The notes below the pieces were generated by a model. That model searched no databases. It saw only the letters and a list, made by a program, of their open reading frames with translations, and was not told the origin of the DNA. The position numbers were made by a program, and so were the translations under genes. This document shows, piece by piece, positions 2,576 to 45,333 of a stretch of 64,000 bases of DNA. The number at the start of each line of letters is the position of its first letter. The stretch's first letter is position 1. Source of the stretch: a virus; the IMG/VR virus record IMGVR_UViG_3300006925_000013, positions 1 through 64,000 of that record; one strand, written 5' to 3'.

Positions 2576-2885
2576 CATAGTCGACTTGACTGCTTACAGA
2601 GAAAAACTTAAGGCGGCTGAACTCGGTAACGACACTCTATTTGAAGAAACAATAGATGATGTCACAAGAGATCTAACAAAGTTTATGGTTCACTTAGGCA
2701 TGGACTTGGATGTGGATATTACACATGAAAGTTTTGCTGTTTATTGTAGTACTGCCGTTGGCTATTACAAAAAAGCATTACGAGTAGCATATGGTTTAGA
2801 AGATTATAAATCAGAGTTGTCCAATTCAGATGCAACTATATGGGATTTAATAGAGGATATAAACAATAACAAAGATGATGAATAA
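2565..2885 (+). CDS. hypothetical protein, 106 aa
   Basis: An acidic, alpha-helical-looking protein (MKNNIVDLTAYREKLKAAE...) with no motif I recognise. It overlaps both neighbours, the coiled-coil gene by 11 bases and nadE by 11 bases, which suggests coupled translation. The composition is typical of small T4-like phage proteins expressed with metabolic genes. Confidence 0.65.
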   Translation: MKNNIVDLTAYREKLKAAELGNDTLFEETIDDVTRDLTKFMVHLGMDLDVDITHESFAVYCSTAVGYYKKALRVAYGLEDYKSELSNSDATIWDLIEDINNNKDDE

Positions 2886-3864
2886 GAAAACTGAACAAGC
2901 AAATTTAAAAAAGTTAATACTTGATTATAACAGAAAGCCTGTGTTGTCTCCTGCATTTGAAAAACTGCTAGACAGTTACATCAAAAGCGGAAAGTACATG
3001 TCAGTTGAAAAACTGCAAGTGCTACGAAATGATATAGTACAGAACTTAGTTGAGTACGCCAACAAATACAAAATAAGCAACGTCTGTGTTGGACTCAGTG
3101 GAGGCATAGATAGTGCCTTAACTGCAAGTTTATTTAGAGATGCAGGCTATCATGTAATTGGTGTAACAATGCCTATTAATCAAATAGAAGATGAAACAGA
3201 CAGAGGCTTTGAAACAGCAAAGGCACTAGGCATAGACCACAGACATATTGATTTAACAGAAGCATACGAAAGTTTGCTTCAACAAGAATATAAAATTGAT
3301 GCTAGTTTAATCAGCAATGATCACTCTAGTAAGATTAGAAAAGGAAACATTCGAGCCAGATTGCGTATGATTACGTTGTACAATCTTGCTGGTGCGAGTC
3401 AAGGCTTTGTAGCAAGTACTGATAATTTTTCAGAACTAGCCGCAGGGTTTTGGACACTACACGGAGACGTGGGCGATGTATCGCCAATACAATCATTAAG
3501 TAAGAGTTGGGAAGTTCCTGCTCTTGCTGAAATGCAAGGTGTACCCGATAGTGTCGTGTTTGCTGTTCCAACAGATGGATTAGGAATATCTAGTTCAGAC
3601 GAGGATCAGTTTGGGTTCAGTTATCTTGAATTTGATTTAGCCTTATTCAAGTTACTGGAAAATGTAGACGGAGTGGAGTTCGAAAATACCATATCAGATA
3701 TTGCCGGATTCAAAGATGTAAAGGACAAATTAATAGTAGAAGAGGTCGCAAGTAGAATTAGAGGCACAACATACAAGAGATTCAATCCTTATAATCTTGC
3801 ACATACGTTTGAAAAAGATCGATATGATCTACTAGATAAACTAGATAACCAATTGAGGAGATAA
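2875..3864 (+). CDS. nadE: NH3-dependent NAD synthetase
   Basis: The PP-loop SGGIDS is at residues 75-80, and later GNIRARLRM and STDNFSELAAGFWTLHGDVGD match the ATP and deamido-NAD binding segments of NadE. The enzyme adenylates nicotinic acid adenine dinucleotide and amidates it to NAD+. Length (329 aa) fits the ammonia-dependent form without a glutaminase domain. It begins with tandem ATG codons overlapping the previous gene. Phage NAD synthesis would support nucleotide metabolism or replace NAD lost during infection. QueC was considered and rejected because of the NadE-specific C-terminal motifs. Confidence 0.85.
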   Translation: MMNKKTEQANLKKLILDYNRKPVLSPAFEKLLDSYIKSGKYMSVEKLQVLRNDIVQNLVEYANKYKISNVCVGLSGGIDSALTASLFRDAGYHVIGVTMPINQIEDETDRGFETAKALGIDHRHIDLTEAYESLLQQEYKIDASLISNDHSSKIRKGNIRARLRMITLYNLAGASQGFVASTDNFSELAAGFWTLHGDVGDVSPIQSLSKSWEVPALAEMQGVPDSVVFAVPTDGLGISSSDEDQFGFSYLEFDLALFKLLENVDGVEFENTISDIAGFKDVKDKLIVEEVASRIRGTTYKRFNPYNLAHTFEKDRYDLLDKLDNQLRR

Positions 3865-3867
3865 ACC

Positions 3868-4155
3868 ATGGAAAATTCAATCATAGGTATAGTTGTTGTA
3901 GTAGCGATTGTTGGATTTGTTGTTTACCAATCATTTTTTAAGAAAGATGATGTAGTAGAAAGCAAACCTACACCTGCTCCTGCACCGGCACCTGCACCAA
4001 AGGCTCCTGCTAAACCTAAAGTTCCTACTGCGGCAGAACTTAATAAAAAGACTAAAGCAGAATTAGAACTATTAGCAAGAGAAAATGGTGTTGAACTAGA
4101 TTTGCGTAAGAAAAAAGCAGACCTAGTGAAAGAAGCCAGAGCATCTTTCAAGTAA
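3868..4155 (+). CDS. membrane-anchored protein with Pro-Ala linker and HeH/SAP-like tail
   Basis: Three parts are visible: a single N-terminal membrane helix (residues 4-24), a Pro-Ala-Lys linker (about 33-50), and a C-terminal helix-extended-loop-helix unit (NKKTKAELELLARENGVELDLRKKKADLVKEA), as in LEM/HeH or SAP-like DNA-binding motifs. It could tether DNA or a protein to the inner membrane. It follows nadE by three bases and is closed by a terminator. Confidence 0.65.
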   Translation: MENSIIGIVVVVAIVGFVVYQSFFKKDDVVESKPTPAPAPAPAPKAPAKPKVPTAAELNKKTKAELELLARENGVELDLRKKKADLVKEARASFK

Positions 4156-4181
4156 GCAATACAAGGACCAAGTATTCAATA

Positions 4182-4207
4182 AGCAGGCCTAGTGCCTGCT
4201 TTCCTTT
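4182..4207 (+). terminator. intrinsic terminator
   Basis: AGCAGGC (4182-4188) pairs with GCCTGCT (4194-4200) and is followed by a T-rich run. It separates the nadE operon from the next late promoter. Confidence 0.75.
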
Positions 4208-4224
4208 GGCTGTGATTTATACAC

Positions 4225-4232
4225 GATAAATA
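4225..4232 (+). promoter_or_regulatory. late promoter GATAAATA (leaderless)
   Basis: Five bases (CTGCT) lie between the motif and the ATG at 4238, which puts predicted initiation on the start codon. Confidence 0.75.
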
Positions 4233-4237
4233 CTGCT

Positions 4238-6091
4238 ATGCTAAACTTATATCTGTGCCAACCTAACTTTAGATTTGGTATTGCAGGAAAAACTGGTTAC
4301 TGGATTCCTTACAGCATTGGCTGTTTATGGAGTTATGCTAGTCAGTTTGATGATATAAAAGAAAATGTAGATCTCAAAGACATAATATTCCGCAGAGAAA
4401 ATGTAGATACTCTAGTTGATAGACTAGAAGACCCAGACATAATAGCATTTAGTTGTTACATGTGGAACTGGGAATGGAGCAAAGCAGTTGCTCAAAAAGT
4501 CAAACAAAAATATCCTAAATGCAAAATAGTATTTGGTGGCCCACAAGTTACTGATAGACCAGATGAAGAAGAATTCTTTAAGCATCACAAGTATGTAGAC
4601 TCAATTAGTTTAGCAGAAGGCGAATTAAGTTTTACAGATATATTACGAAATCTAATCAACGGCAAACTAATAGAAAAAATATATAACTATCCAAGACTAA
4701 CAGAATTAGACATACCAAGTCCTTACTTAACAGGTGTGTTTGAAAAGATTATAGCAGACAATCCAGGCGTACTATGGAATGGCACATTAGAAACTAATCG
4801 TGGCTGTCCATTTGCTTGTACATTCTGTGACTGGGGTGGCTTAACATATAGTAAACTTAAAAAGTTTCCTGAAGAAAAAGTATTACAAGAACTACATTGG
4901 ATGGCACATAACAAAATGGATTATGTAACAATAGCAGACGCAAACTTTGGTGTGTTTACAGATAGAGATATGAAGTTTACAGAAGAACTTGTAGCATTAC
5001 AAAAAGAGTTTGGCTATCCACAGGTTGTTGATGCCACATGGTATAAGAACAGTTCAGAAGAGATAATGGAAATTGTTAAGAAGTTTATCAGCAGTGGCTT
5101 CAATAGAGGACTAACTTTAAGTGTACAAAGTATGGACATGGATGTACTAGAAGAAATTAAAAGACGTAACATGGAGTTTAGTAATCTCAAACACATATTT
5201 GATATATGTAATAGAGAACAGATACCTAGTTACACAGAACTTATACTAGGCTTACCCAAAGAAACATTTGAAAGTTGGAGTAAAGGTTTATGTGATGTAA
5301 TTGAAATGGGTCAACACAATGCTATTGAAAGTTGGTTAGCACAATTACTAGAGAACGCACACCTTAATACACCTGAGCAAAGAGCAGAACACGAAATAGA
5401 CACGATAGTTGTGAAAGATTATATATCAGGCTTTGAGGAAGAAGATGGCATCAGCGAAAGTGTCACGTTAGTCCGCGGAACTAAGGACATGCCGATGCCT
5501 AAGTTTATAGACAGTTGGATGTATGCTTGGATGATCAATAATTTTCACAACTACGGCTGGACACAGATCATCAGCAGGTTCCTACGCAAGTATAAAGATA
5601 TGAGTTACTTGGAGTTTTATAATAGACTGTGGACACTTATACAAGAAGACGATGGTTATGTTAAGCAGTTATTTGACACAGCAAAAGCACAACTCACAGA
5701 ATACTTAGAGACAGGTATTGCTGATGGCTTTAGTGGACATACACTTATGTGGTCAGCACAAAGCGACTTTCACAAGGAGCCACTAAAAATATTTCAGTTC
5801 ATTGATAAGCATTACAGTAGAGAATGGTTAGACTTGCCAGAGAAGTATTACCCACAACTTATGAAACTACAAACGTTTTATGTTAGCCACCTAACTGTAT
5901 CTTATCCAACACAAATGAATTTTGGATATAACTTTTTAGAATACATCAATGATGAGGACTCAGAATTATTAAAAGACAAAACAGAATACACCTTAGATTT
6001 AATCATGCCATGCGACAGTGAAGAAGAATACTTAGACAGAATGTATTACAAAAGAAGACAAGGTTGGGGCAAAGTTTTGTTTTCCACTTAA
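4238..6091 (+). CDS. B12-binding-domain radical SAM protein
   Basis: The 617-residue protein begins with a cobalamin-binding-like Rossmann domain (about 1-140; IVFGGPQVTDRP and SLAEGELSF are typical). A radical SAM barrel follows with the cluster motif CPFACTFC (C190, C194, C197) and then a long C-terminal region (about 430-617). Such enzymes use S-adenosylmethionine and often cobalamin for methylation or rearrangement at unactivated carbons; the substrate is unknown. It is transcribed alone from a leaderless late promoter, so it acts late, possibly on virion or cell-surface components. A second member lies at 18202. Confidence 0.8.
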   Translation: MLNLYLCQPNFRFGIAGKTGYWIPYSIGCLWSYASQFDDIKENVDLKDIIFRRENVDTLVDRLEDPDIIAFSCYMWNWEWSKAVAQKVKQKYPKCKIVFGGPQVTDRPDEEEFFKHHKYVDSISLAEGELSFTDILRNLINGKLIEKIYNYPRLTELDIPSPYLTGVFEKIIADNPGVLWNGTLETNRGCPFACTFCDWGGLTYSKLKKFPEEKVLQELHWMAHNKMDYVTIADANFGVFTDRDMKFTEELVALQKEFGYPQVVDATWYKNSSEEIMEIVKKFISSGFNRGLTLSVQSMDMDVLEEIKRRNMEFSNLKHIFDICNREQIPSYTELILGLPKETFESWSKGLCDVIEMGQHNAIESWLAQLLENAHLNTPEQRAEHEIDTIVVKDYISGFEEEDGISESVTLVRGTKDMPMPKFIDSWMYAWMINNFHNYGWTQIISRFLRKYKDMSYLEFYNRLWTLIQEDDGYVKQLFDTAKAQLTEYLETGIADGFSGHTLMWSAQSDFHKEPLKIFQFIDKHYSREWLDLPEKYYPQLMKLQTFYVSHLTVSYPTQMNFGYNFLEYINDEDSELLKDKTEYTLDLIMPCDSEEEYLDRMYYKRRQGWGKVLFST

Positions 6092-6125
6092 AACACCATA
6101 AAACTTAACTGATGTGTTAATTAAT

Positions 6126-6133
6126 GATAAATA
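6126..6133 (+). promoter_or_regulatory. late promoter GATAAATA with long leader
   Basis: The motif has predicted initiation near 6139. Unlike the leaderless promoters, it is followed by roughly 195 noncoding, structured bases before the next start codon. Confidence 0.65.
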
Positions 6134-6138
6134 ATCGT

Positions 6139-6334
6139 TGGAAGATTATTGGTCTCTTCCGCAACAGGACGGTTGATTGATTGTCGGTTGTAGTGGTATG
6201 TATTCACTGTAGGTCTCATTAAGAAGATACAACAAAACGAAATCACAAAAGTTAAGGAACTTTAACCCCTGAGCATGGTTCGTAAGAACATGTGAACGAC
6301 TAGTGCTAATTGTTATTTAGACTAGGAGAAAAAT
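6139..6334 (+). ncRNA. structured 5' leader or small RNA
   Basis: This noncoding stretch contains at least three clean hairpins: GGAAGA/TCTTCC (6140-6160) at the predicted 5' end, AAAGTT-AAGG-AACTTT (6248-6263), and GTTC-GTAA-GAAC with a GNRA-type loop extended by CAT/ATG (6274-6292). The density of structure next to a short membrane gene suggests a regulatory leader or a stable RNA. No Rfam family is recognised by eye. Confidence 0.5.
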
Positions 6335-6520
6335 ATGACAACAGATACAATTAAAAGTTTTGTTTCTGGAACCTTTACAAATTTACCAACATCCTTTGAA
6401 AACTTCAAAGAGAAGTATTGTCCAGACGGACAGACGTGCAATGATATTGCCACGTTTGGAGGCTTAGCCTTTATGGTCTGGTTTATGTACCTCGCTATGG
6501 AACCTATCATTAGATTCTAA
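6335..6520 (+). CDS. small membrane protein, 61 aa
   Basis: The protein has a soluble N-terminal half with two Cys (YCPDGQTC) and one C-terminal hydrophobic helix (GGLAFMVWFMYLAM). The ATG follows an AGGAGAAAA ribosome-binding site. It is the only gene between the structured leader and a terminator, so it forms its own late unit. A role in virion membrane interaction or lysis is conceivable but unsupported. Confidence 0.7.
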   Translation: MTTDTIKSFVSGTFTNLPTSFENFKEKYCPDGQTCNDIATFGGLAFMVWFMYLAMEPIIRF

Positions 6521-6563: not shown

Positions 6564-6594
6564 AAGGCCTCACTTCATGTGGGGCCTTTCTTTA
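6564..6594 (+). terminator. intrinsic terminator
   Basis: AAGGCCTCAC pairs with GTGGGGCCTT around a short loop, followed by TCTTTAT. It ends the forward unit. Its right edge touches the stop codon of the convergent reverse-strand micro-gene. Confidence 0.8.
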
Positions 6595-6693
6595 TATAAG
6601 CAGAATGCCTATAATAAATCCTATGTTGAGTCCTATAGAACAGACCAACAACATATCTTTCTTAAAAGAATACGGAACTAATTCAGTTACCAT
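6592..6693 (-). CDS. 33-residue membrane microprotein (reverse strand)
   Basis: On the reverse strand an ATG at 6693 is preceded by GTAGGAG seven bases upstream and opens a 33-codon frame, MVTELVPYSFKKDMLL... ending in a single hydrophobic helix. Further upstream is a reverse-strand GATAAATA late promoter (6726-6719). Promoter, ribosome-binding site and a membrane helix together make this tiny gene credible despite its length. Function unknown. Confidence 0.55.
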   Translation of the reverse strand: MVTELVPYSFKKDMLLVCSIGLNIGFIIGILLI

Positions 6694-6718: not shown

Positions 6719-6734
6719 TATTTATCGATAAATA
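6719..6734. promoter_or_regulatory. abutting divergent late promoters
   Basis: TATTTATC followed directly by GATAAATA makes a perfect 16-bp palindrome: one GATAAATA late promoter on each strand with no base between them. The forward copy (6727-6734) serves the lipase operon and the reverse copy serves the 33-codon gene. Confidence 0.7.
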
Positions 6735-6759: not shown

Positions 6760-7575
6760 ATGACAGTAGAAAACAAACTTATTAGTGATAATCTGGAAGA
6801 GATATCACAAGCCAAAGTAATGGCACGTTTGGCAGGACGCAGTTACCTAGACCCCGATGACCCTGAAAGAAAAAAGAAAAGACCTCCTGGATTTGGCAAA
6901 AAGAATCCAGTGTTCGTTTCTGTAGAGAATGCCCAAGCATGGGTATACTATGGAGCAGGTAAAATAGTTGTAGCATGTAGAGGGACAGAGCCAACTCAGT
7001 TCGCTGATGTTCTAGCAGACTTAAAGACTATTCCTGTAAGACACGATAGAAATGGTATGGTTCATTCAGGATTTTGGGAAGAGGCTAACAAAGTCTACCC
7101 AGGCATTCTAGAGGCAGTAAAGGCCGGTAGAAAGAAAGACGAAAAAGTATATGTATGTGGGCACAGTTTAGGCGGTGCTATGGCAGTTTTAGTAGCAGAA
7201 ATGTTATGCCACGACAAGATACCTGTTGAAGAACTTAGAACTTTTGGACAACCAAGAGTAGGAACAAGGAAGTTTAGAAGACATTTAGAAGGTTGTAAAA
7301 TAGGTTCATACCACAGATATGTAAATAACAACGACATTGTGCCTAGAGTACCACCTGCATTGTTTGGATTTGTACATGGTGGCAAACTAATGTACATCAA
7401 TAGTTATGGTAATATTAGAAACTCGACTATATGGCAAAGAATCAAAGACGGTTGGAGAGGCTTTTGGGCCGCATGTAAACAGTTTAAGTTCTTTGATTTT
7501 GTAGCAGATCACGGTATGCCACATTATATTCAGCATGTAGATAACCTAGATGAAGAGTCTCCGCAAGGTAAGTAG
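6760..7575 (+). CDS. class 3 lipase-like alpha/beta hydrolase
   Basis: The 271-residue protein shows a lipase class 3 pattern: CRGTEP for the oxyanion region, nucleophile elbow GHSLGG near residue 133, FGQPRVG after it, and NNDIVPRVPP with the likely catalytic Asp. A final His is present near GGKLMY or in DHGMPHY. It would hydrolyse acyl esters of lipids. No signal peptide is visible, so it acts in the cytoplasm or after lysis. Expression is from a late promoter with a GGTAGGAG ribosome-binding site. A lipase could aid membrane breakdown or lipid scavenging. Confidence 0.75.
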   Translation: MTVENKLISDNLEEISQAKVMARLAGRSYLDPDDPERKKKRPPGFGKKNPVFVSVENAQAWVYYGAGKIVVACRGTEPTQFADVLADLKTIPVRHDRNGMVHSGFWEEANKVYPGILEAVKAGRKKDEKVYVCGHSLGGAMAVLVAEMLCHDKIPVEELRTFGQPRVGTRKFRRHLEGCKIGSYHRYVNNNDIVPRVPPALFGFVHGGKLMYINSYGNIRNSTIWQRIKDGWRGFWAACKQFKFFDFVADHGMPHYIQHVDNLDEESPQGK

Positions 7576-11323: not shown

Positions 11324-11914
11324 ATGAATTTTATACCTTATGTAGTAGAAAAAGTAGCAGGTGGCGAACGTAGTTACGACATCTACAGCAGATTATTAAA
11401 AGAAAGAATTGTATTTTTAAATGGCGAAGTAAACGATCAGGTATCAAATAGTATTTGTGCTCAGTTACTTTTCTTAGAAGCAGAAGACAGTACAGAAGAT
11501 ATTAATTTTTATATTAACTCACCAGGTGGCGTAGTTACTGCTGGTATGGCAATGTATGACACAATGCAATATATCAAACCAGATGTGTCAACTATTGTTA
11601 TGGGGCAGGCATGTAGTATGGGCAGTCTACTTGCAACAGCAGGAGCACCTGGTAAAAGATTTATGCTACCAAAAGCAAGACATATGATACACCAGCCAAG
11701 TGGTGGTGCAAGAGGACAGCAATCAGATATCGAAATTGCCGCACAAGAAATACGCAGAATGCGAACAGAATTAACTGAGATCTATGTAAAACATAACAGC
11801 AAAGGAAAAACCTTTGAAGAGGTTAATGCTGACATAGAACGTGATAATTTTATGACAGCCAATGAGGCGTTAGATTACGGGTTGATAGACGAGATTGTTG
11901 ATAAACGTCCATAG
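11324..11914 (+). CDS. clpP: ATP-dependent Clp protease proteolytic subunit
   Basis: The 196-residue protein aligns along its length with ClpP. It has the catalytic Ser in ACSMGS (S98), His in MIHQP (H123) and a downstream Asp in the DRDNFM-like segment ([18 protein letters not shown]). INSPGG and the heptamer-forming regions are present. ClpP forms a 14-mer chamber fed by an AAA+ unfoldase; a phage ClpA lies at 26065. The ATG follows TAGGAG. It could remodel host or phage proteins during infection. Confidence 0.9.
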
Positions 11915-17030: not shown

Positions 17031-17267
17031 ATGAAACAAGGTAACTTATTTGATGAACTGTATGATGCACAGGAAACTGACGATTATACAGATGATACTA
17101 ATCATGCAAATGCAAATGGTTTGTATCCAATAGCAAGTGAAGATGTTATTAAGCAAGAACTAGTTACATATTATAGAGTTGCAGGTGCTGTTAAGAAAGT
17201 AACAAAGTCTAGAAACTTTCTTTTTAATGAACATAACGACACAACAACTATTGAGGTTTTTAAATGA
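17031..17267 (+). CDS. hypothetical protein upstream of the clamp loader, 78 aa
   Basis: An acidic N-terminal part (LFDELYDAQETDDYTDDT) is followed by a more basic half. It is the first gene from a sigma70-like promoter and overlaps the clamp loader start by four bases, so the two are co-translated. It is too short to be T4 gp62, the usual clamp-loader partner. A regulatory role is possible from position only. Confidence 0.6.
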   Translation: MKQGNLFDELYDAQETDDYTDDTNHANANGLYPIASEDVIKQELVTYYRVAGAVKKVTKSRNFLFNEHNDTTTIEVFK

Positions 17268-18190
17268 AAGAATTATGGGTAGAAAAATACAGACCTAACA
17301 CAGTAGATGGATATGTATTTAGAGATATCAATCAACGTAAGCAGATAGAAGGCTGGATTAATGATGGTGCATTGCCACACTTACTGTTTAGTGGTGCTCC
17401 AGGTACAGGTAAAACTACATTAGCAAAGGTATTGCTACACAGTTTAGAAGTAGATCAATTTGATATACTTGAAATTAATGCTAGTAACGAAAATGGTATT
17501 GACGTTATTAGAGATAGAATCACAAACTTTGTGAGTACTATGCCGTTTGGAGAGTTTAAGTATGTATTGCTAGATGAAGCAGATTACATTACTCCTAATG
17601 GGCAGGCGGCGTTACGTGGTATGATGGAAATGTATCATACAACTGCTAGGTTCATATTAACCTGTAACTACCCACAAAGAATTATCCCGGCTCTTCATTC
17701 TAGGTCCCAAGGTTTCCATATTGAGAAACTAGACATAAATGAATTTACAGCCAGGATAGCAACTATCTGTGTTGAAGAGGGCGTACAGATAGATTTAGAA
17801 ACCCTTGACACTTATGTACAAGCAAGTTATCCAGATCTTCGTAAGAGCATCAACTTGGTACAACAAAATGTAGTCGACGGTGTATTACAAAGTCCTCAAG
17901 ATGGCGATGCCGCACAAAGCGACTGGATGCTATCTATGGTAGAGTTATTCAAAGCAGGCAAATACAAAGAAGCAAGAACACTTATTTGTGACCAAGCAAG
18001 GCCCGAAGAATACGAAGATGTGTTTAAGTTTTTATACAGGAACTTAGATTTATGGGGAGCAGAGCCACTGAAGCAAGACCAAAGCATTGTTATCATAAGA
18101 GACGGTATGGTGAAGAGTGTGTCTTGTGCAGACCCAGAGATTAACCTTAGTGCAACTCTAGTAGAACTAGAGATGAATGCTATGGGTTAA
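17264..18190 (+). CDS. 44: sliding-clamp loader AAA+ subunit (gp44)
   Basis: The 308-residue ATPase has EKYRPNTVDGYV at the N-terminus, Walker A GAPGTGKTT (about residues 46-54), Walker B LLDEAD and sensor-1 LTCNYPQRI, followed by SRSQ with the arginine-finger region. It opens and loads the sliding clamp onto primed DNA for the family B polymerase. The T4 partner gp62 was not found in this window. Expression from the preceding early-type promoter fits a replication gene. Confidence 0.9.
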   Translation: MKELWVEKYRPNTVDGYVFRDINQRKQIEGWINDGALPHLLFSGAPGTGKTTLAKVLLHSLEVDQFDILEINASNENGIDVIRDRITNFVSTMPFGEFKYVLLDEADYITPNGQAALRGMMEMYHTTARFILTCNYPQRIIPALHSRSQGFHIEKLDINEFTARIATICVEEGVQIDLETLDTYVQASYPDLRKSINLVQQNVVDGVLQSPQDGDAAQSDWMLSMVELFKAGKYKEARTLICDQARPEEYEDVFKFLYRNLDLWGAEPLKQDQSIVIIRDGMVKSVSCADPEINLSATLVELEMNAMG

Positions 18191-42380: not shown

Positions 42381-42641
42381 ATGAGTCTGACTGTAGAAAA
42401 GGTATATTTATTTGACATGCAATGGACAGATGATGCTGACTATGAGCACATCTTCGAAGATCGCCTGCATGACACAATGATTCCTTTCTTTGCATTTGGT
42501 GAAGAAGCAACCTTTTCTAGAGAAGTAGACTATACAAGCAGTTATAAACCAGTAGCAAAAATATATGCAAAGTTTATAACAGAGGCAAGCAAATATAAAT
42601 TTATGTTAAAATATTCGGACAAATTAAATGAGTTACGTTGA
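42381..42641 (+). CDS. hypothetical protein upstream of DNA polymerase, 86 aa
   Basis: A small acidic alpha/beta protein (MSLTVEKVYLFDMQWTDDADYEHIFEDRLHDTMIPFFAFGEE). It overlaps the polymerase start by 14 bases and leads its transcript from a promoter that should give a leaderless mRNA. A role in polymerase regulation is possible from position alone. Confidence 0.65.
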   Translation: MSLTVEKVYLFDMQWTDDADYEHIFEDRLHDTMIPFFAFGEEATFSREVDYTSSYKPVAKIYAKFITEASKYKFMLKYSDKLNELR

Positions 42642-45333
42642 CGCAGTTTTTGAACAGAACAAAGGCATAGTAAGAGTCGTTGAACGTACTAAAGAGGGCG
42701 AACGCAAGATTATTGATCACCCTATGCGATACTACTTTTATGTAGATGATCCTAAAGGCAAACAGCATAGTGTGTATGGCGACCCAGTAAGTAAGATTAC
42801 AGCAAACAATTGGAAAGACTTTAAACGTAATGTTGCATTGTATCAAAACAAACGCACATATGAAAGTGATCTAAAACCTGTAAACAGAGTATTAGCAGAT
42901 CATTACTTGGGCATGGATGCACCAGACTTACACAAATGCTTTTTTGATATCGAGGTAGACTTTGATCCAGATAGAGGTTATAGTTCTCCTGAAGATGCAT
43001 TTATGCCTATTACCAGTATCAGTGTTTACTTAGACTGGATGGATAAGATTGTTTGTTTAGCAGTTCCGCCTAAGACACTTAATTGGGAACAAGCACAAAA
43101 GATAGCAGATAATGTAGGCGACACTATATTGTTTGGTAATGAAAAAGCAATGTTAGATGCTTTTCTTAGTCTCATAGATGATGCAGATATATTGAGTGGT
43201 TGGAACAGTGAAGGTTATGATATTCCTTATACTGTAAACAGAATTATCAAAGTGTTAGGTAAAAGCGAAACAAGACGTCTGTGTTTACTAGACAAAAACG
43301 TGATTAAAAGAGAATATGTTAATCACGGTAGAGAAACACAAACATATGACTTAGTAGGTCGTGTACACTTAGACTATATGCAACTGTACAGAAAGTATAA
43401 CTATGAAGAGCGTCATAGTTACAGACTAGACTACATTGGTGAAATGGAAGTAGGTGAAAAGAAAGTTGTGTATGATGGTAGTTTAGACAGACTATACAAT
43501 CACGACTTTGAACTGTTCTTAGAGTATAACATACAAGACACAATGCTACTTAAGAAACTAGATGATAAGTTGCAGTTTATAAGTCTTGCCAGTGAGATTG
43601 CACATCAAAATACAGTATTACTTCCAGTAACAATGGGTGCGGTACAGACTATTGACCAAGCAATAGTTAATGAAGCACACAGACGTGGCATGGTTGTTCC
43701 TGATAGAAATAGAACTAAAGATTCAGATAACCCATGGGGGCATACAGTAGCAGGTGCCTATGTGGCATTTCCTAAGAAAGGTATGCATGAATGGGTAGGG
43801 TCGATGGACATAAACAGTCTGTATCCTAGTGTCATTAGAGCATTGAATATGGCTCCTGAAACTATTGTAGGACAACTAAGGCAAGAGTACACAGATAAAG
43901 AAATTACAGAAAAAATGCAAATAGAAAAGAAATCATTTGCAGATGCATGGGCAGGTAAGTTTGGTACTAATGAATATGAAATGGTTATGGCTAAAGATGT
44001 TGACAAGCCACTTATATTAGACTTAGAAGACAAAAGAGAAATTAGTGTTAAAGGTGCTGACGTGTATAACATGCTGTTTAATAGCGAGGAGCCATGGTGC
44101 ATTAGTGCAAATGGTACTGTATATAGAACAGACGTACAAGGTATTATACCCGGTCTATTAGAGAAATGGTATTCAGAGAGACAAGAATTACAGGCTAAAA
44201 AGAAACAAGCAACAACACCAGAGGACATAGCATTCTGGGATAAGAGACAGTTAGTTAGAAAAATTTTACTTAACAGTACATATGGTGCTATTTGTAATCC
44301 AGGTAGTAGGTTCTTTGACCATAGAATAGGACAAAGTACAACACTCACTGGTAGAGCAATTACTAGACACATGGGAGCAGAAACAAACAAAATGTTGACT
44401 GGCGAATATGATCACACAGGCGATACTATTGTTTATGGTGATACTGACTCTGTATATTTTAGTGCTCATGAAATTAGTAAAAAGCAAGATATTGAGTTAG
44501 ACATGGATAGTGCTATTGCATTATATGATAATATTTCAGATACAGTTAGTGACTCTTTCCCTTCATTTGCTAAACAGGCCTTTAACATTTCTACTAGTCA
44601 AGGTAATATACTTAAAGCAGGTAGAGAAGTTGTTGGTAGAGCAGGTATCTTTATTACTAAGAAAAGGTATGCTATCAATGTATTAGACTTAGAAGGTTGG
44701 CAACCAGAAGGCGGAAAACTTAAAGTAATGGGCCTAGATCTTAAGAGATCAGACACACCTGAGTTTGTGCAAGACTTCTTAAGTGACATACTAGGGCAGA
44801 CACTAAACGGTGACGGTGAAACAAAAGTACTTGCAAGTGTAAGAGAGTTTAAGAAGGAGTTCAAAGCAATGGACTCTTGGAAGAAAGGTATGCCTAAAAG
44901 GGTAAACAACTTAACATATTACACAGAAGCATACAATAAAGCATTCAGTATGAACAAGAGTGCTAGTCTTTACAAGTTAGAAAAACTCAAAGACGAAAAG
45001 AAAGTAATGATTCCTGGGCATGTTAGAGCAAGTATTAACTGGAATAACATGTTAAAAGCAAACAGTGATCAATACAGTATGCAAATAACAGATGGTATGA
45101 AAGTAATTGTGTGCAGGTTAAAGAGTAATGCAATGGGTTATACAAGTATTGCATACCCAACAGATGAAATGCATATACCAGATTGGTTTAAACAACTGCC
45201 TTTTGATGACGATGCAATGGAAGAGGCAGTAGTTGATAAGAAAGTAGAAAACTTATTGAATGTACTAAAATGGGATTTGTCGCAGACAGATACTAGTAAT
45301 ACATTCCATAGTTTATTTGATTTTGATGATTAA
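42628..45333 (+). CDS. 43: family B DNA polymerase (gp43)
   Basis: At 901 residues it matches T4 gp43 in length. Exonuclease motifs are FFDIEVDF (Exo I), GWNSEGYDIPYTVNR (Exo II) and YNIQDTMLLKK (Exo III). Polymerase motifs are DINSLYPSVIR (A), KILLNSTYGAICNPG (B) and VYGDTDSVYF (C, the two catalytic Asp). It replicates phage DNA with proofreading. It is expressed with a small upstream gene from an early-type promoter. No intein or insertion is visible. Confidence 0.95.
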   Translation: MSYVDAVFEQNKGIVRVVERTKEGERKIIDHPMRYYFYVDDPKGKQHSVYGDPVSKITANNWKDFKRNVALYQNKRTYESDLKPVNRVLADHYLGMDAPDLHKCFFDIEVDFDPDRGYSSPEDAFMPITSISVYLDWMDKIVCLAVPPKTLNWEQAQKIADNVGDTILFGNEKAMLDAFLSLIDDADILSGWNSEGYDIPYTVNRIIKVLGKSETRRLCLLDKNVIKREYVNHGRETQTYDLVGRVHLDYMQLYRKYNYEERHSYRLDYIGEMEVGEKKVVYDGSLDRLYNHDFELFLEYNIQDTMLLKKLDDKLQFISLASEIAHQNTVLLPVTMGAVQTIDQAIVNEAHRRGMVVPDRNRTKDSDNPWGHTVAGAYVAFPKKGMHEWVGSMDINSLYPSVIRALNMAPETIVGQLRQEYTDKEITEKMQIEKKSFADAWAGKFGTNEYEMVMAKDVDKPLILDLEDKREISVKGADVYNMLFNSEEPWCISANGTVYRTDVQGIIPGLLEKWYSERQELQAKKKQATTPEDIAFWDKRQLVRKILLNSTYGAICNPGSRFFDHRIGQSTTLTGRAITRHMGAETNKMLTGEYDHTGDTIVYGDTDSVYFSAHEISKKQDIELDMDSAIALYDNISDTVSDSFPSFAKQAFNISTSQGNILKAGREVVGRAGIFITKKRYAINVLDLEGWQPEGGKLKVMGLDLKRSDTPEFVQDFLSDILGQTLNGDGETKVLASVREFKKEFKAMDSWKKGMPKRVNNLTYYTEAYNKAFSMNKSASLYKLEKLKDEKKVMIPGHVRASINWNNMLKANSDQYSMQITDGMKVIVCRLKSNAMGYTSIAYPTDEMHIPDWFKQLPFDDDAMEEAVVDKKVENLLNVLKWDLSQTDTSNTFHSLFDFDD

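Follow-up and report, generated by a model that had tools for sequence, protein, structure and literature searches.

Structured leader RNAs of phages related to T4 have been described on a few occasions. The manA (RF01745) and wcaG motifs are structured candidate cis-regulatory RNAs from T4-like phages and marine metagenomes, located in potential 5' UTRs and with unknown ligand (PMC2864571). Methylophage Melnitz, a marine T4-like phage, and related phages carry a glutamine riboswitch of the known glnA class at the tmRNA gene (PMC9004378), and a scan for riboswitches in pelagimyophages was negative (PMC7029224). Outside this group, metastable structures are reported for the mRNA of the type I toxin AapA3 (PMC6733600).

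Here, we analysed 64,000 nt of viral DNA (positions 1 to 64,000 of IMG/VR virus record IMGVR_UViG_3300006925_000013, which comprises 71 kb; hereafter the window), in which a leader of ~195 nt extends from a late promoter at 6126–6133 to the ATG at 6335 of a gene for a small membrane protein. The initial annotation had singled out this leader for its length, and rightly so, since, wherever another late promoter of the window is closely followed by a gene, the start codon is mostly reached after 11–39 nt and in a few cases after 66–94 nt. Positions 6140–6328 apparently represent the founding copy of an undescribed family of structured RNAs, no description of which was found in the literature searched. 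Comparison of the relatives establishes the helices (P4 by conservation, not covariation), a pseudoknot, the mutual exclusion of this pseudoknot and the last helix, P6, and the fixed cis position of the RNA. The reading we favour, with some reservation, is that translation of the small membrane protein is under the control of the leader, acting in cis as a riboswitch-like RNA switch. It rests on comparative analysis alone, in the absence of expression, probing or reporter data.

Relatives of the leader and their genomic context

An initial search with the 61-residue protein yielded seven contigs, one of them clearly divergent, and the remaining relatives were found with patterns taken from the leaders of these seven. 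In total, 20 leader copies (18–20 of them distinct) were identified in contigs of uncultured T4-like phages, with further contigs carrying identical copies, and 18 distinct members constitute our working set. Every copy is located behind an ATAAATA-type late promoter, with P1 at nearly constant distance from the promoter core and a gene for a small hydrophobic protein directly downstream, so that the unit consists of one promoter, one leader, one small gene and usually a terminator thereafter. A covariance model built from the members scores each of them with 81–154 bits and detects the RNA once per phage record, no other match in the records searched being credible. A base pattern without pairing constraint additionally returned 33 non-member loci in other viral contigs, which we attribute to chance as they obtained no model score; these loci form 2–6 of the seven P5 pairs and lack a late promoter, while members pair at nearly all positions. 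Pattern matches in bacterial genomes, 21 in number, were discarded likewise, as none of them scored with the model. A minimal form of the RNA (~130 nt), in which P4 is missing and P3 is reduced to CCUC-GUAA-GAGG, is found at L024:3292–3421 and identically in L029, on contigs of 217 and 340 kb; in L031, P4 is altered.

Table 1. Positions of the leader elements and adjacent features in the window.
Feature	Position	Strand	Remark
Conserved element upstream of the promoter, ACCAnAAAACTTAACnnnTGTnTTAA (ACCAnAAAACTTAACnnnTGTnTTAAC, two TTAAC half-sites)	6095–6121	+	Conserved in most of the 18 members
T4-type late promoter, GATAAATA	6126–6133	+	TAAATA core ends 4–6 nt before P1 in all members
P1 hairpin at the predicted transcript 5' end, GGAAGA/UCUUCC, 6 bp	6140–6160	+	z 5.3
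Pseudoknot 5' strand in the P1 loop, UAUUGGUC	6147–6154	+	Covaries only with 6298–6305
Linker RCAA, conserved, unpaired	6161–6164	+	
P2 5' strand, CAGG-AC-GGUU	6165–6174	+	z 6.4, 0 of 5000 permutations
P3 domain, type A: GAU/AUC, internal loop UGUCG/ACGAA, GUUGU/ACAAC, enclosing two hairpins	6179–6244	+	
P4 hairpin, AAAGUU-AAGG-AACUUU, 6 bp	6248–6263	+	Sequence nearly invariant
P2 3' strand, AACCCCUG	6264–6271	+	
Linker AG, unpaired, invariant	6272–6273	+	
P5: 4 bp, bulged G6278, 3 bp, GNRA loop GUAA	6274–6292	+	99.2% of cells paired
UGAA, unpaired, invariant	6293–6296	+	
Pseudoknot 3' strand, GACUAGUG, overlapping the P6 5' strand	6298–6305	+	Complementary to the P1 loop beyond permutation
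P6: CUAGU [bulged G] CUAA / UUAG ACUAG, touching the Shine-Dalgarno	6300–6325	+	
Shine-Dalgarno, AGGAG	6324–6328	+	
61-residue protein, one hydrophobic helix, CPDGQTC motif	6335–6520	+	
Intrinsic terminator directly after the small gene, AAGGCC..GGCCTT and T-rich tail	6564–6596	+	

The proteins encoded behind the leader RNA comprise 46–63 residues with one hydrophobic segment, and most of them share the motif C-x-D/S-G-x-x-C. Neither Pfam nor PHROG gave a match for the small protein, for which AlphaFold predicts, at low confidence, three helices, the last being hydrophobic. Among 50,697 annotated phage records, no relatives of the leader or of the small gene were detected by DNA and protein similarity. 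The C-x-D-G-x-x-C motif is lost in the small proteins of L012 (1859–1999) and L037 (331–468), both of which retain the RNA, indicating stronger conservation of the RNA than of the protein encoded downstream. Terminator-like hairpins directly 3' of the small gene are present in 15 of the 18 members, and the unit can therefore be considered monocistronic, the RNA serving one protein.

Leader and small gene are flanked by a radical-SAM/B12-binding gene (4238–6091) and a lipase-like gene (6760–7575). The neighbourhood is loosely conserved (2875–6091 and 11324–11914 in the window), with genes for NAD synthetase and a small Rho_N-like membrane protein, and in some cases one for a B12/radical-SAM protein, on the upstream side and a lipase or a ClpP-like protease on the downstream side. 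Clamp loader (17264–18190) and DNA polymerase (42628–45333) are of T4 type. The closest isolate relatives of this polymerase belong to jumbo phages, namely Sinorhizobium phage Phosso (48%) and Agrobacterium phage Atu_ph07 (43.5%), and the covariance model, run on the records of both, detected no leader RNA. Conservation across the family covers some 30–50 bp upstream of the leader's promoter. This conserved element recurs in front of none of the other late promoters in the window, where no second site reached the score cut-off; it might be an activator site or represent a second promoter that overlaps the first. A palindromic bidirectional late promoter, TATTTATCGATAAATA, lies at 6719–6734, between the small gene and that of the lipase, the minus-strand half of which would transcribe antisense to the small gene.

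Covariation of the leader helices

The initial annotation had drawn attention to a hairpin at the start of the predicted transcript, which is present with 6 bp, and to at least two more perfect hairpins, one with a GNRA-type loop. Both of the latter exist, at 6248–6263 (AAAGTT/AACTTT, 6 bp) and 6274–6292 (GUAA loop), but the GNRA stem is not closed by simple 4-bp pairing, since it keeps G6278 bulged across the relatives. A further hairpin, P6, had not been listed. The folding energy of the leader is not unusual compared to dinucleotide shuffles (z = -0.44), and of 100 other 195-nt segments, 63% show folding that is as good or better when each is compared to its own shuffles. We therefore rejected single-sequence folding energy as evidence; the hairpins alone are not significant, and the case rests on covariation over 18–20 relatives.

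Considering the whole model, 96.1% of cells are paired and 18 of 30 pairs show changes on both sides, a result matched by no shuffle, with a covariation score of 0.475 compared to 0.160 for shuffled alignments and at most 0.085 for slid registers. Three of the six P1 pairs have changed on both sides, with GC replaced by CG in L036 and by UA in L037, and the sixth pair occurring as AU, UA or GC. P2 is a long-range helix enclosing P3 and P4, for which the pairing was re-optimised for every permuted partner; CAGG/CCUG of the window is exchanged for CGGG/CCCG in L004 and L006, with a G–U intermediate in L005, and for CAGAUA/UAUCUG in L036. P3 occurs in two types, the segments of which were delimited by eye ahead of counting. 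Type A, with an internal loop of the UGUCG/ACGAA type, has 56 of 56 cells paired in seven members, and type B, with a bulged G, has 62 of 64 cells paired in eight members, compensatory changes being observed in both. P4 is conserved, but its near-invariant sequence precludes proof by covariation. In P5, each of the seven pairs shows changes on both sides, none of 500 shuffles being as good, and P6 is paired in 99.2% of cells, with five of eight pairs changed on both sides and z of 5.4 for the outer and 5.5 for the inner part.

It should be noted that shuffles correct only partly for shared ancestry. This concern is reduced by a test on 12 representatives, one per group, which under re-optimised permutation yielded z of 4.2 for P1, 5.7 for P2 and 4.1/4.4 for P6, and by several independent sequence solutions of the pseudoknot. 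The RNA of the + strand is the functional, selected molecule, since the U–G pairs in P5 and P6 would be A–C mismatches on the other strand. Absence of covariation among relatives had been part of the refutation proposed for the initial annotation; with strong covariation in every conserved helix except P4, this refutation has itself been refuted. The suggestion of a regulatory or stable RNA thus gains support from the covarying helices and from the cis position upstream of the membrane-protein gene.

An Rfam search, likewise proposed at the outset, assigned the leader to no known family. In Rfam 15, including the manA, wcaG, glutamine, SAM, cobalamin and preQ1 riboswitches, ribozymes and tmRNA, the leader reaches the gathering score of no family, and over the whole window only tRNAs do so. 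At permissive E-value, nothing credible was found in the leader of the window or of 11 relatives, all matches being attributed to chance, and ARAGORN found no tRNA or tmRNA in the leader.

The pseudoknot and its competition with P6

In every member, the loop of P1 shows complementarity to the segment that follows UGAA, with sequences that differ by group: UCC/GGA, CUUC/GAAG, CGC/GCG and ACC/GGU are found, and AUUGGUC/GACUAGU in the window. The strand in the P1 loop is of GCAnUCC type in most relatives; in the window's own subgroup the GCA/UGC part is missing, and the loop pairs by a different sequence. When pairing was re-optimised in each permutation, the observed sum was reached in 0 of 20000 permutations for the 18 members (z 4.4) and in 8 of 20000 for the 12 representatives (z about 3.5–3.6). 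Scanning the P1 loop over anchored intervals from P5 to the gene start gave a clear signal at 6298–6305 only. Pairing of the loop with the Shine-Dalgarno region was rejected, since those intervals displayed no covariation.

The 5' strand of P6 consequently covaries with two partners, the P1 loop and the strand abutting the Shine-Dalgarno. At the level of sequence comparison, pseudoknot and P6 are mutually exclusive, and both are maintained by compensatory change. Their estimated strengths are similar in all members, with -3.8 to -7.9 kcal/mol for P6 and -5.2 to -10.1 kcal/mol for the pseudoknot duplex before pseudoknot penalty. Exclusive pairings which both covary and are computed to be of similar strength argue for a switch rather than a static fold, and we consider this our strongest evidence. 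P6 adjoins the Shine-Dalgarno in nearly all members (4–5 nt away in L035), so that the Shine-Dalgarno is mostly located beside P6 and not buried inside. The computed accessibility of GGAG shows no consistent change between the two states, and only the 20 nt upstream change. Since P6 adjoins the Shine-Dalgarno and competes with the conserved pseudoknot, cis-regulation is favoured over a discrete stable RNA.

Proposed mechanism, alternative explanations and known systems

We propose a model in which the late transcript would begin at P1 and its emerging 5' part would fold P1, P2 (around P3 and P4) and P5, joined by the single-stranded linkers RCAA, AG and UGAA. The pseudoknot could then form between the P1 loop and the segment that follows UGAA, closing the 5' domain into a compact fold. 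The 3' strand of P6 and the Shine-Dalgarno, which are made last, would compete, with the post-UGAA segment re-pairing into P6. The A/U-rich stretch preceding the Shine-Dalgarno is predicted to be single-stranded when the pseudoknot is formed and would be paired in the P6 state, with the hairpin abutting the ribosome-binding site. We infer that the pseudoknot corresponds to translation being on and P6 to reduced translation, an assignment we consider more likely than its reverse, even if GGAG accessibility does not decide the matter. That the two states alternate in vivo is likewise an inference, as is the binding of a ligand (metabolite, ion or protein), which, held by the conserved linkers, would shift the balance. 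The controlled gene, which encodes an uncharacterised small membrane protein, gives no hint of a ligand. A more specific hypothesis, which we put forward only tentatively and regard as doubtful, would be a new riboswitch class limited to a group of T4-like phages, in which the P1-loop pseudoknot is locked by a ligand bound at the junction of RCAA, AG and UGAA, this lock setting the timing of the late small membrane peptide and possibly of a membrane event (such as lysis or its inhibition).

One of the states could alternatively be held by a phage or host protein binding P5 (bulged G, GNRA) or the junction, as exemplified by the autogenous leaders of T4 gene 32 and of ribosomal-protein operons. 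P5 does resemble a protein-recognition hairpin in its conserved bulged G, invariant loop type and invariant AG/UGAA flanks, and the bulged-G module is repeated in P3 type B. We nevertheless judge such a translational operator unlikely, given that there is no candidate binder and that enclosure by P2 together with the pseudoknot is more elaborate than most single-protein operators. Without any switching, 5' hairpin and compact fold might merely give protection to a late mRNA of high abundance and leave its ribosome-binding site accessible, in line with P1 forming the predicted 5' end of the transcript in every member and with a possible role of P6 in shielding the Shine-Dalgarno from other pairing. 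Protection, however, requires neither a pseudoknot competing with P6 nor invariant linkers nor a conserved bulged G, and compensatory change maintains both competing pairings, rendering a passive stabilising leader quite unlikely.

The mRNAs of Hok and AapA are kept untranslated by metastable structures, and the late transcript could in principle be such a type I toxin-like messenger, in which exclusive metastable structures hold the mRNA of a hydrophobic peptide untranslated until a late step. A small hydrophobic peptide is indeed encoded downstream, as expected of type I toxin-antitoxin systems; its size and single helix, the monocistronic unit with its own terminator and the mutually exclusive pairings close to the Shine-Dalgarno would all fit. 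What is not met is the expectation of a conserved antisense RNA gene: among the members, there is no conserved antisense promoter, antisense late promoters at similar position being present only in the closest relatives of the window (L003, L005), where they are half of a palindrome serving the next gene. An antisense antitoxin was rejected for this reason and, with no toxicity data available, we consider a toxin-like messenger very improbable. A discrete noncoding RNA, processed from the leader and acting in trans, would agree with the compact fold of ~190 nt with defined ends. Yet the RNA is always joined to an intact Shine-Dalgarno and the small gene, P6 ends at the Shine-Dalgarno, and the absence of model matches beyond the single copies in the phage records searched also speaks against it; we hold it to be very unlikely.

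For the cis-acting switch, two expectations are fulfilled at the comparative level, namely that the 5' UTR of one gene family harbours a conserved structure with covariation, as in cis-regulatory structured leaders, and that exclusive pairing couples the folded 5' domain with an expression platform close to the Shine-Dalgarno, as in riboswitches. Control of metabolically related genes, a further riboswitch characteristic, is not observed, since the gene is always that of the uncharacterised small membrane protein. The leader adds an orphan class of structured RNA, the covarying anatomy of which is complete from the helices and the pseudoknot to the expression-platform hairpin that competes with the latter, to the small number of regulatory RNAs described for uncultured T4-like phages. 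With both exclusive states resolved to single bases, few mutants are needed for a test of the mechanism, providing a route to the function of an unannotated family of small phage membrane proteins.

Like the manA and wcaG motifs, the RNA described here is a structured candidate cis-regulatory leader of T4-like phages, but its structure is different, and those motifs precede cyanophage metabolic and exopolysaccharide genes rather than a single family of small membrane proteins. The glutamine riboswitch of Melnitz likewise resides in a T4-like phage, whereas our leader matches no known class. With AapA3 it shares the small hydrophobic peptide, the structured mRNA and alternative pairings, which in AapA3 control the Shine-Dalgarno; it differs in lacking a conserved antisense promoter and in its late phage promoter and conserved multi-helix pseudoknotted leader. 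SAM-II, preQ1-II and c-di-GMP-II riboswitches and the cobalamin kissing loop combine a folded 5' domain with a pseudoknot beside the ribosome-binding site and exclusive pairing. There is no sequence or covariance-model match to these pseudoknot-based translational riboswitches, and no ligand is known for the leader RNA. It nonetheless resembles them in architecture, with the distinction that its pseudoknot competes with an upstream hairpin and excludes the Shine-Dalgarno itself.
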